NCBI GenBank assembly: GCA_011523385.1
Contig: WTGX01000004.1
Location: 248,001 to 312,000, forward strand
DNA length: 64,000 bases
Direction of reading: 5' to 3'
Origin: Nitrospira sp.
GTDB lineage: Bacteria > Nitrospirota > Nitrospiria > Nitrospirales > UBA8639
Under the pieces are notes generated by a model that ran no database searches, was not told the origin of the DNA, and saw only the letters and a program-made list of their open reading frames with translations. The stretch's first letter is position 1; every line of letters begins with the position of its first letter. A program made the translations under genes and the position numbers. This document shows, piece after piece, positions 18,712 to 38,387 of this stretch.

Positions 18712-19443
18712 ATGTCGGCACCGATCGTTCGCGTTCAAAACCTGACCAAGCGGTTCGGCGATTTCACCGCGGTGGATCACGTGTCGTTCGAGATCCAGCC
18801 CGGAGAGACCGTCGGACTGCTCGGACCCAACGGCGCAGGAAAAACCACGACCTTTCAAATGCTCCTGGGCGTGATTACGCCCACGCACGGGACGATCGAG
18901 ATGCTGGGACTCGATCTCCTGCACCATCGGGAAGCAATTCTCCGGCAGGTCAATTTTTCCTCCACCTACATCTCGATGCCCTTTGCCCTGACCGTGGAAG
19001 AAAACCTCCGTGTCACCGGCCGGTTGTACGGGGTATCGGGCATCGACGGACGAATCGACGACGTGGTGAAAAAACTCGAGATGGAAGACATGCGCCACAA
19101 AGTGACCCGCAAATTGTCGTCCGGACAAATGACGCGGCTGACGTTGGCAAAGGCGGTCCTGACCGAACCGAAAATTCTGTTTCTGGACGAACCCACCGCC
19201 AGTCTGGACCCGGATATCGCCCACAAAGTGAAAGGATTTTTAAAGGAATATCGCGCGACGTCCGGCCTGAGCATGTTGTACACCTCGCACAACATGCGGG
19301 AGATAGAAGAAATGTCCGACCGGATCGTGTTCCTGCAACGAGGAAAAATCATCGCCGAAGGAACCGCCCAAGAAGTCATCGCGCAATACGGCGAAGACGA
19401 CCTCGAACGGGTTTTCCTCAAAATTGCCCGAGAAAGTCAATGA
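18712..19443 (+). CDS. ABC transporter ATP-binding protein (ABC-2 exporter type)
   Basis: A 243-residue ATPase with Walker A GPNGAGKTTT, the Q-loop region, signature KLSSGQMTRL, Walker B ILFLDEPTASLDPD and the H-loop TSHNMREIEEMSD. It is most like the CcmA/NatA/DrrA group that pairs with ABC-2 permeases. The cognate permease is at 20084, but a DUF559 gene with its own repeats sits between. It follows the hexaheme gene by 19 bases. The substrate is unknown. Confidence 0.93.
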   Translation: MSAPIVRVQNLTKRFGDFTAVDHVSFEIQPGETVGLLGPNGAGKTTTFQMLLGVITPTHGTIEMLGLDLLHHREAILRQVNFSSTYISMPFALTVEENLRVTGRLYGVSGIDGRIDDVVKKLEMEDMRHKVTRKLSSGQMTRLTLAKAVLTEPKILFLDEPTASLDPDIAHKVKGFLKEYRATSGLSMLYTSHNMREIEEMSDRIVFLQRGKIIAEGTAQEVIAQYGEDDLERVFLKIARESQ

Positions 19444-19506
19444 ATATCTCTGCCTTCCCTTCGCTTACATTCAGGTAAGAAAAGGTGGAGAATCAGGAAG
19501 GAATGA

Positions 19507-19553
19507 CTGTCTTTTTCCTCCCCTTTGTAAGGGGAGGTTAGGAGGGGTAGAGC
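19507..19553 (+). repeat. 47-bp direct repeat, left copy (flanks the DUF559 gene)
   Basis: Starts CTGTCTTTTT and contains the palindrome CTCCCCTTTGTAAGGGGAG followed by GTTAGGAGGGGTAGAGC. It is identical over all 47 bases to the copy at 20013-20059. A related inverted member lies at 38286-38329. The copy is 10 bp before the first ATG of the DUF559 gene. Confidence 0.9.
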
Positions 19554-19562
19554 TAAACACAC

Positions 19563-19985
19563 ATGAAACACAATCAACGAACACAACAAGGACCCTCGAA
19601 GGTTCTTTCGTTGAAACGGCGGTTGCGGACTGCAATGACCTCAGCCGAGCAGGTTCTCTGGACTAAGCTCCGTTCAAAACAATGTGACTCATTCAAATTT
19701 CGCCGGCAACATGCCATTGGTCCGTTCATTGTCGACTTTTTTTGTCCGGAACAATTACTGGTCGTTGAAATCGATGGCGACGTTCATGCCGAAGAGACCC
19801 AACGAACAAAAGACCGGCAGCGCGAAAAATATTTGCGTTCCCTAGGACTTCAAGTTATTCGCTATACGAATCATGAAGTGCTGAACAATCTAGATGGTGT
19901 CCTGGAACATCTGCTTGCAGTGCTTTCCTCGGACTCTACCTCCCCTCACCCCTCCTTACAAAGGAGGGGAAGTAGGAAAGAGTGA
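19563..19985 (+). CDS. DUF559 (Vsr-fold) endonuclease-like protein
   Basis: A 140-residue protein of the DUF559 family. The core is AEQVLWTKLRSKQCDSFKFR, then RQHAIGPFIVDFFCPEQLLV followed by VEIDGDVHAE, and finally LGLQVIRYTNHEVLNNL. The D...E-I-D-G..H pattern is the PD-(D/E)XK/Vsr-like nuclease core. The last residues (SDSTSPHPSLQRRGSRKE) are encoded by a repeat element, so the native C-terminus probably ends near 19930. The gene, with its repeats, separates the ATPase and permease of one ABC exporter, pointing to insertion into an existing operon. Nuclease activity is predicted, not shown. Confidence 0.85.
   Translation: MKHNQRTQQGPSKVLSLKRRLRTAMTSAEQVLWTKLRSKQCDSFKFRRQHAIGPFIVDFFCPEQLLVVEIDGDVHAEETQRTKDRQREKYLRSLGLQVIRYTNHEVLNNLDGVLEHLLAVLSSDSTSPHPSLQRRGSRKE
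19936..19977 (-). repeat. Inverted, diverged copy of the flanking repeat
   Basis: Reads CTACCTCCCCTCACCCCTCC then TTACAAAGGAGGGGAAGTAGG. On the minus strand it resembles the 47-bp repeats (CCCCTCCTTTGTAAGGAGGGG core with reordered flanks). It overlaps the 3' end of the DUF559 reading frame. Confidence 0.8.
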
Positions 19986-20012
19986 CAAATGATGCAAGAC
20001 CGAAAGAAATCG

Positions 20013-20059
20013 CTGTCTTTTTCCTCCCCTTTGTAAGGGGAGGTTAGGAGGGGTAGAGC
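20013..20059 (+). repeat. 47-bp direct repeat, right copy
   Basis: Identical to 19507-19553. Together they bound a 506-bp unit containing the DUF559 gene. The repeat ends 24 bases before the ABC-2 permease start. Confidence 0.9.
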
Positions 20060-20083: not shown

Positions 20084-20875
20084 ATGAACCTCGGTCGTAT
20101 CTCCGCACTGATTTTCAGGCATCTCTTTCTCTATCGCCGGAGTTTTCCCCGGTTGCTGGAGATTTTTTACTGGCCCTTGTTGGACCTGGTGGTGTGGGGA
20201 TTCATTACGATGTACCTGGCCCAGGAGGGGAAGGGCCTGCACGGAGCCGTCGTCTTTTTTCTGGGAGCGCTCATTTTTTGGGACATTCTCTTTCGGGCGC
20301 AACAGGGGATCACCATCTCTTTTCTCGAAGAAATCTGGTCGAGAAATCTCATGAATTTGTTCGCCAGTCCCCTCACCGCCGGGGAATTTCTGGCAGCGAT
20401 GATGGCCATGAGCATCTTCAAGGTGGCCGCGGTTTCCATCATCATGGCGTTTGCAGCCCTGTTCTTTTATTCCTACAACGTGTTCATCATGGGGCTGACC
20501 CTGATCCCGTTCGTCATGAACCTGATTGCAGCCGGATGGCTCATCGGGATCTTGACCACGTCGGTGATTATGCGATTCGGCCAGCAAGCCGAAGTGCTGG
20601 CCTGGGGATTGGTCTTTCTGTTCCAACCGATCTCTTGCGTCTTCTACCCCCTGTCCGTGTTGCCGGACTGGCTGAAACCGCTGGCCTTGGCCAACCCGGC
20701 CGCGCACGTGTTCGAGGGTATGCGGGAAGTCTTACTGAATCAGGTCGTGCCGTGGTCGCACCTGTGGTGGGCGATGGGTCTGAACGGCCTGTATCTGTTG
20801 CTTATGATTGCGATCTATCAATACACGTTTTCCGTGTGCAAAGATCGCGGCATGCTGGTCAGAGTCGGGGAGTAA
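20084..20875 (+). CDS. ABC-2 type transporter permease
   Basis: A 263-residue membrane protein with about six transmembrane segments. It has the ABC-2 features LLDLVVWGFITMYLAQE, FLEEIWSRNLMNLFASPLTAGEFL (the cytoplasmic coupling region) and FYPLSVLPDWLKPLALANPA, followed by HVFEGMREVLL, the conserved ABC-2 C-terminal signature. It should work with the ATPase at 18712 as an exporter of a lipid, polysaccharide or drug-like substrate. The ATG follows the right 47-bp repeat by 24 bases. Confidence 0.92.
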   Translation: MNLGRISALIFRHLFLYRRSFPRLLEIFYWPLLDLVVWGFITMYLAQEGKGLHGAVVFFLGALIFWDILFRAQQGITISFLEEIWSRNLMNLFASPLTAGEFLAAMMAMSIFKVAAVSIIMAFAALFFYSYNVFIMGLTLIPFVMNLIAAGWLIGILTTSVIMRFGQQAEVLAWGLVFLFQPISCVFYPLSVLPDWLKPLALANPAAHVFEGMREVLLNQVVPWSHLWWAMGLNGLYLLLMIAIYQYTFSVCKDRGMLVRVGE

Positions 20876-38285: not shown

Positions 38286-38329
38286 GCTCTACCCCACCTG
38301 ACCTCCCCTTACAAAGGGGAGGAAAAGAC
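38286..38329 (-). repeat. Inverted relative of the 47-bp DUF559-flanking repeat
   Basis: Its reverse complement reads GTCTTTTCCTCCCCTTTGTA, then AGGGGAGGTCAGGTGGGGTA, then GAGC. It differs from the copies at 19507 and 20013 by only a few bases, although no DUF559 gene is present here. Confidence 0.85.
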
Positions 38330-38341
38330 TGTGCAGGCCCG

Positions 38342-38387
38342 CTTTCTTCCCCTCCTTTGTAAGGAGGGGCAAAGGGGAGGTAGAGGG
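38342..38387 (+). repeat. Second relative of the CCCCTCCTTTGTAAGG repeat
   Basis: Reads CTTTCTTCCCCTCCTTTGTA, then AGGAGGGGCAAAGGGGAGGT, then AGAGGG. With 38286-38329 it forms a head-to-head pair in the gap 38153-38418, which has no gene. Confidence 0.75.

Follow-up and report, generated by a model that had tools for sequence, protein, structure and literature searches.

Between two ABC transporter genes in the window (the whole stretch of 64,000 nucleotides of Nitrospira sp. DNA analysed here) lies a DUF559 nuclease-family gene framed by copies of a dispersed intrastrand-triplex repeat. Our best explanation, held with moderate confidence, is that this unit belongs to a family of small mobile elements, among which it is the form that carries the gene, and that the nuclease so encoded spreads the family, in the manner of REPINs and RAYTs but with an unrelated enzyme. 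A functional link between DUF559 genes and triplex repeats is, in our judgment, very probable; mobilisation of the repeats by DUF559 is an inference that has not been shown, and here we do no more than lean towards it. The repeats and the protein family were each known before, and what is new is the link between them.

The unit, its protein and its site

The features of the locus, together with the one gene-free copy found elsewhere in the window, are as follows.

18712..19443, + strand: ABC transporter ATPase, 5' of the unit (Pfam PF00005, E 1e-30)
19448..19464, + strand: tentative decayed B-type tail CTCTGCCTTCCCTTCGC, 5' of the left repeat (visual comparison with intact copies only)
19507..19553, + strand: left 47-bp direct repeat, A-type (sequence, repeat search, triplex detector)
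19517-19537, + strand: hairpin of the left A-type repeat, CCTCCCC-TTTGTAA-GGGGAGG, after a 10-nt lead-in
19563..19985, + strand: DUF559 (PF04480) nuclease-family gene, 140 aa (Pfam, alignment, AlphaFold, Foldseek, dN/dS)
19934..19969, - strand: B-type inverted repeat within the 3' end of the gene (sequence, repeat search, triplex detector)
20013..20059, + strand: right 47-bp direct repeat, A-type, same letters as the left (sequence, repeat search)
20084..20875, + strand: ABC-2 type permease, 3' of the unit (Pfam PF01061, E 1.1e-9; congener orthologues directly behind the ATPase)
38287..38385, - strand: gene-free paired copy of the TTTGTAA family (L024), B'-spacer-A, about 99 bp (pattern search, locus inspection)

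The two direct repeats (CTGTCTTTTTCCTCCCCTTTGTAAGGGGAGGTTAGGAGGGGTAGAGC, 19507-19553 and 20013-20059) show no differences, the similarity around them reaches 56 nt at 95%, and they start 506 bp apart; the identical flanks and 506-bp unit proposed in an earlier, sequence-only reading are thus confirmed in coordinates and identity. A chance origin of the direct repeats was rejected. 3' of its hairpin, the A-type repeat continues with the loop TTA, the mirror purine arm GGAGGGG and TAGAG, this tail facing the gene in the left copy. The inverted relative that the same reading placed over the 3' end of the gene is present at 19934-19969, where the - strand reads as the tail CTCTACCTCCCC followed by the hairpin CCCCTCC-TTTGTAA-GGAGGGG (+ strand letters, CTCTACC-TCCCC...CCCCTCC-TTACAAA-GGAGGGG), and it encodes the C-terminal residues ..STSPHPSLQRRG.. 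of the DUF559 protein. Its Y arm is CCCCTCC, against CCTCCCC in the A-type repeat; the inverted copy is therefore a separate B-type repeat, and the order of the unit is A - gene - B' - A. The B-type copy and the right A-type copy together make up a paired T'-H'-spacer-H-T unit. A further outward repeat behind the DUF559 gene, like the A-gene-B'-A of the window, was also seen at five loci from unrelated phyla (L206, L213, L216, L219 and L235).

That the unit splits an ABC operon was borne out by the congeners, in five of which (G002, G004, G008, G010 and G013) the same ATPase and permease genes are 17-23 bp apart and the operon is intact, supplying the uninterrupted junction that was sought in relatives. 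Congener G011 carries the same A-gene-B' unit at the junction plus a second gene, and G003 and G005, where DUF559 is missing, have that second gene or remnants of repeats; the site is therefore better described as a hot spot with several states than as a simple before/after pair. The second junction gene codes for 224 aa without a Pfam match (L105:227-898, - strand; also L108 and L109; congeners G011, G003 and G005), and apparent remnants of it are found in G006 and G009.

The open reading frame at 19563-19985 is clearly a DUF559 gene (PF04480, Pfam E 6.4e-34), and its protein has all four of the residues (E29, D58, E69 and H75) that are invariant across 40 diverse homologues. Sequence homology is detected to the gonococcal DUF559 protein (PDB 3HRL, E 1.8e-37) and to the catalytic domain of I-Bth0305I (PDB 3R3P, E 8e-6). 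In the AlphaFold model (mean pLDDT 82.8) the repeat-encoded C-terminal tail is poorly ordered. Foldseek matches the model to 3hrl, 3r3p (E 2e-4) and 1vsr, with E. coli Vsr behind the first two; on the evidence of this model the window protein has the Vsr/EDxHD fold, as had been suggested from the letters alone. Purifying selection is evident among five orthologues of the window gene (dN/dS = 0.13-0.29), from which it follows that the gene is retained for the protein it encodes. Elsewhere the host has a single DUF559 domain, in an open frame of 745 codons (L001, C28:316779).

No Rfam family was found at the gathering cut-off between 18500 and 21500, and a group I intron or intein was rejected on this ground and because related genes lie at different loci.

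Triplex repeats and DUF559 genes across phyla

The identity of the repeats was reached through a repeat-sequence search of paper texts. BoxC/PIT/TM repeats are G/C-rich intrastrand-triplex motifs found in >260 genomes (E. coli MG1655 has 23 of them), strain-variable and with types A and B arranged as inverted pairs; they have been known since the 1990s, with neither protein partner nor origin known (PMC4666352), and the BoxC family is treated in PMC2267715 too. The window repeats are BoxC/PIT/TM by motif definition (Y - loop - R - loop - mirror R), by their dispersed multicopy nature and by their A/B inverted pairs. The likeness extends from the Y arm, purine arm and mirror purine arm to the intergenic positions and the variability between close strains, and with our triplex detector the A-type, B-type, TTGAT and E. 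coli repeats all give 9-nt stems; the difference is that BoxC/PIT/TM was described without a partner protein, whereas the window family is tied to DUF559. Triplex formation in vitro has been shown by Holder et al. (2015) for the E. coli motif, not for the window sequence (PMC4666352). The idea of an undescribed element thus falls for the kind of repeat, which is already BoxC/PIT/TM, and stands for its connection to DUF559: Holder et al. report no mobile-element association, the words "ycjD" and "endonuclease" are both absent from their text (PMC4666352), and a literature search of partial coverage found no paper connecting DUF559 or YcjD with these repeats.

The association was assessed at no fewer than 80 DUF559 loci from many phyla, gathered from public genomes with a DUF559 alignment and through one conserved peptide pattern. 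The motif sought ran from a pyrimidine arm across a loop to its complementary purine arm, and across a second loop to a mirror purine arm on the side of the gene; DUF559 genes of 220 aa or less were taken as stand-alone (65 among the matches listed), and the 813 other genes of the same loci served as controls. Among the matches listed, the gene-facing motif lies upstream of 38/65 stand-alone DUF559 genes (58%) against 30/813 control genes (Fisher 1.6e-30), downstream of 50/65 (77%) against 41/813 (Fisher 1.1e-42), and on both flanks of 31/65 against 2/813, the control rate being 4-5% per flank. The question whether other DUF559 genes are repeat-flanked is thereby answered in the affirmative, although no motif was detected upstream in 42% or downstream in 23% of the stand-alone genes among the matches listed. 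Since the detector was written after viewing examples and its limits were self-chosen, the exact percentages depend on it, and no phylogenetic correction was applied to these statistics. The contrast with control genes does not rest on the triplex detector alone: a simpler inverted-repeat score in an earlier run gave 57% against 2.6% of controls (among the matches listed). In separate Nitrospirota loci the motif was found upstream of 25/43 and downstream of 29/43 short DUF559 genes; for long DUF559-containing frames the counts were 4/18 and 0/18.

Repeat families follow DUF559 protein clades, also between phyla. Over 56 loci (among the matches listed) the similarity of the proteins correlates with that of their flanking repeats with a Mantel r of 0.69, and the correlation persists at 0.46 for different-phylum pairs only and at 0.45 with Nitrospirota left out (0/2000 permutations as high). 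Two genomes, G004 and G011, each have two DUF559 clades, with an own repeat family for each clade. Copy number varies with the gene as well: TTTGTAA repeats number 83 at the median where a congener has the cognate gene and 13 where it lacks it (p 0.02), and for TTGAT repeats the medians are 49 and 8 (p 0.008), p values that are only indicative because the 14 genomes are related and were not corrected for phylogeny. Repeats also occur without a cognate gene, with 57 copies in G003, 32 in G006 and 14 in G002, which is without any DUF559, and G012 has the cognate gene and only 6 repeat copies. In three CPR genomes that do not exceed 1 Mb, the family of repeats proper to each has 23-30 copies.

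Two other explanations meet their test here. If abundant MITE-like repeats had merely landed beside a dispensable gene, the direct repeats would be two independent insertions; with about 39 copies in the host, and with repeats on both flanks of 2/813 control genes too, such landings can be imagined. The enrichment, the inward polarity, the cognate matching and the recurrence in unrelated phyla all contradict this, and the control comparison already refutes it unless the loci are grossly biased, so that we give it next to no credence. A repair role is also highly improbable, in which DUF559 would be a Vsr-type T:G mismatch endonuclease serving cytosine methyltransferases and the repeats would be incidental. 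The Vsr-like fold is in keeping with it, and a Caulobacter DUF559 protein, VsrA, which triggers SOS induction in vivo, was read by the authors of that study as a mismatch repair enzyme (PMC12907096). Incidental repeats, however, cannot yield 58-77% against 4-5% (among the matches listed), nor co-variation across phyla, and a simple motif screen, which does not exclude a distant methyltransferase, found no C5-methyltransferase-like gene in at least 80 DUF559 loci.

Gene-free copies and polymorphic sites

In the host genome the palindrome CCTCCCCTTTGTAAGGGGAGG has 39 sites at no more than one mismatch, against 0 matches, in the whole host genome, to the reversed palindrome pattern used as a control; in shuffled windows the palindrome is expected 0 times. 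Thirty of the host copies were fetched and 29 assessed for arrangement. A is paired with B' in 23 of the 29, five are single, and the remaining one is the left repeat of the window unit, which frames the gene. The pairs divide into 16/29 of the form A-spacer-B', with tails inside, and 7/29 of the form B'-spacer-A, with tails outside; the latter include the right window copy, and the pair at 38287-38385 is arranged likewise. This pair is the one paired copy that answers to the gene-free related repeats previously noticed elsewhere in the window.

Some gene-free copies hold pieces of the gene. The 5' end of the DUF559 gene is matched by sequence in two spacers, those of L014 (E 6e-6) and L019 (E 4e-4), and L021 retains its 3' end, as judged by eye; a control search of thirty 1-kb flanks gave nothing below 1e-3 except what overlapped the window locus. 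Because of these remnants, the gene-free copies are at least partly internally deleted derivatives. In this they resemble the MITEs of DNA transposons, being short, without a gene and inverted at their ends, and in some cases (L014, L019) internally deleted from a gene-bearing copy; they differ in that there is no DDE transposase and a target-site duplication is not established.

The repeats are also polymorphic between species: the sites of L009, L029, L031, L003 and L021 are empty in congeners, and the L004 site carries, depending on the species, the TTTGTAA family, another repeat family or nothing. At this last site (L251-L259) differing families, tandem pairs or none are seen, usually behind a CTCCCCTTT-like tract, possibly a target preference, and in L257 the loop of the repeat hairpin holds a second, unrelated hairpin, TGCCCTGAGCGGAGCCGAAGGGTCA. 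The exact insertion ends could not be resolved in the Nitrospira relatives, whose flanks are too divergent or occupied by other repeat families.

E. coli has the same system: its ycjD is a DUF559 gene, and E. coli BoxC is part of one system with the window unit. In MG1655 ycjD has 3' of it a B'-type repeat that has decayed, a duplicated ycjD fragment and a copy of the A type; this A-type BoxC copy fits the triplex motif, and places related to it number 19 in the median E. coli genome. When genomes were sampled widely, the 37 that have ycjD showed 15-30 BoxC places and the 22 that lack it 3-24 (median 6), a contrast that amounts to few independent events because the low values sit in strains like ST131 and CFT073 relatives. 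A clean empty ycjD site was not found in E. coli, the ycjD-less strains having an efflux operon there. At pstB-pstA (L272), an ABC ATPase/permease junction, the BoxC-filled allele is set apart from the empty one by a difference of 92 bp, and an 8-bp direct repeat, AACCGTGT, surrounds the insert and is single in the empty allele; it could equally be a target duplication or the trace of a deletion between short repeats (microhomology). The second polymorphic E. coli site, rhaD-rhaA, has no footprint of this 8-bp type. No consistent target-site duplication emerged from the E. coli and Nitrospira sites, host bases being replaced or lost elsewhere.

In Neisseria gonorrhoeae, NGO0050, represented by a deposited structure (PDB 3HRL) to which the sources consulted assign no function, shares the DUF559 domain, and the DUF559 gene in another gonococcal record (L243) has related triplex-like repeats on both sides, once upstream and three times downstream. 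They lie at 2369, 2983, 3264 and 3545, in direct orientation and with a 281-bp period downstream. Two plasmid-labelled records, NZ_CP141089.1 (4.9 Mb) and NZ_CP119142.1 (2.2 Mb), are chromosome-sized and probably mislabelled chromosomes.

The closest characterised relative of the window protein by sequence and fold is I-Bth0305I, and a free-standing homing endonuclease might have been copied into gene-free pairs that existed already, with the repeats as its landing pads; gene-free pairs of the form H-T-spacer-T'-H' are numerous enough to offer it targets. The two proteins share the catalytic-domain fold and detectable homology, yet I-Bth0305I belongs to a mobile intron and has both a long target and an extra DNA-binding region, and the window unit has no intron, no extra domain and many dispersed repeats. 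At least two gene-free pairs hold DUF559 remnants and so are derivatives, and the repeats themselves lie at sites empty in relatives and therefore move or are lost too. We consider this explanation improbable.

Proposed mechanism, parallels and meaning

According to the mechanism we propose, the ends of the element are BoxC/PIT intrastrand-triplex repeats in inverted arrangement (H-T ... T'-H') and its sole gene is the putative Vsr/EDxHD-fold nuclease. In favour of a nuclease stand the sequence and fold matches to 3HRL and I-Bth0305I, and the SOS induction by the Caulobacter DUF559 protein (PMC12907096). The nuclease would recognise the hairpin or triplex of its own repeat family on a strand laid bare by a replication fork or by supercoiling, and would nick or cut beside it; repair of the break, or copying, might then insert the element at new intergenic places, gene-free internally deleted derivatives much more often than the gene-bearing form. 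Such spread would resemble that of REPINs, which are thought to be moved by RAYT enzymes. The proposal rests on what was observed: the layout of the unit, its recurrence across phyla, the matching of protein to repeat, the many copies, the gene remnants, the polymorphic sites, the selection on the gene and the fold. Recognition of the triplex or hairpin and cleavage are inferred, as is the attribution of the spread to DUF559 rather than to another factor.

The strongest competing explanation is a repeat-tending nuclease with no part in the spread, trimming or resolving the triplex or hairpin or regulating itself through its own flanks, while the repeats move by other means such as slippage or a host recombinase. 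It accounts for the cognate pairing and for the flank positions, it fits repeats that are numerous and persist without the gene, and Holder et al. tie the triplex motif to local instability and deletions (PMC4666352). What it leaves unexplained is that the gene and the gene-free copies have one and the same frame of inverted repeats, the DUF559 remnants within such copies and the higher copy number where the gene is present; we regard it as unlikely, yet still to be reckoned with. Either spreading or handling the BoxC/PIT repeats is probably what the DUF559 protein does.

The parallel to REP elements and their RAYT enzymes, drawn at the outset from the sequence alone, holds for the layout of gene plus repeats and fails for the HUH enzyme and for the GTAG/CGTC tag. 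As with REPINs and RAYTs, there is one nuclease gene amid palindromic repeats, many gene-free inverted pairs and a matching of gene to repeat. RAYTs, though, are Y1 HUH enzymes, whereas DUF559 has the unrelated Vsr/PD-(D/E)XK fold, and the window repeats have a third, mirror arm. By inspection no GTAG/CGTC tag is present at the palindrome foot, the hairpin being preceded by TT(T/C); GTAG is confined to the TTTGTAA family, where it lies in the tail, and is absent in the other DUF559-associated families. A RAYT/REP system proper was rejected, there being no HUH domain and Pfam giving only DUF559/REase families. The comparison remains a parallel on the present analysis, and no binding, cutting or mobilising by the protein has been demonstrated.

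More broadly, DUF559 elements could be a class of prokaryotic mobile element without HUH, DDE, tyrosine or serine recombinase, in which a Vsr-fold nuclease alone moves the DNA between triplex-forming repeats, and the BoxC/PIT repeats of many phyla, including those of E. coli, could be their non-autonomous derivatives, a generalisation that might as readily prove wrong as right. A cognate nuclease for BoxC/PIT, with ycjD as an accessible gene of E. coli K-12, would turn an old puzzle into a direct experiment. If the explanation preferred here, a mobile element spread by its DUF559 nuclease, is true, the REP/RAYT way of life would have a second, unrelated type of enzyme, and a large family still called "protein of unknown function" would gain a role; it would also suggest that a DNA triplex could act as the address of a mobile element.
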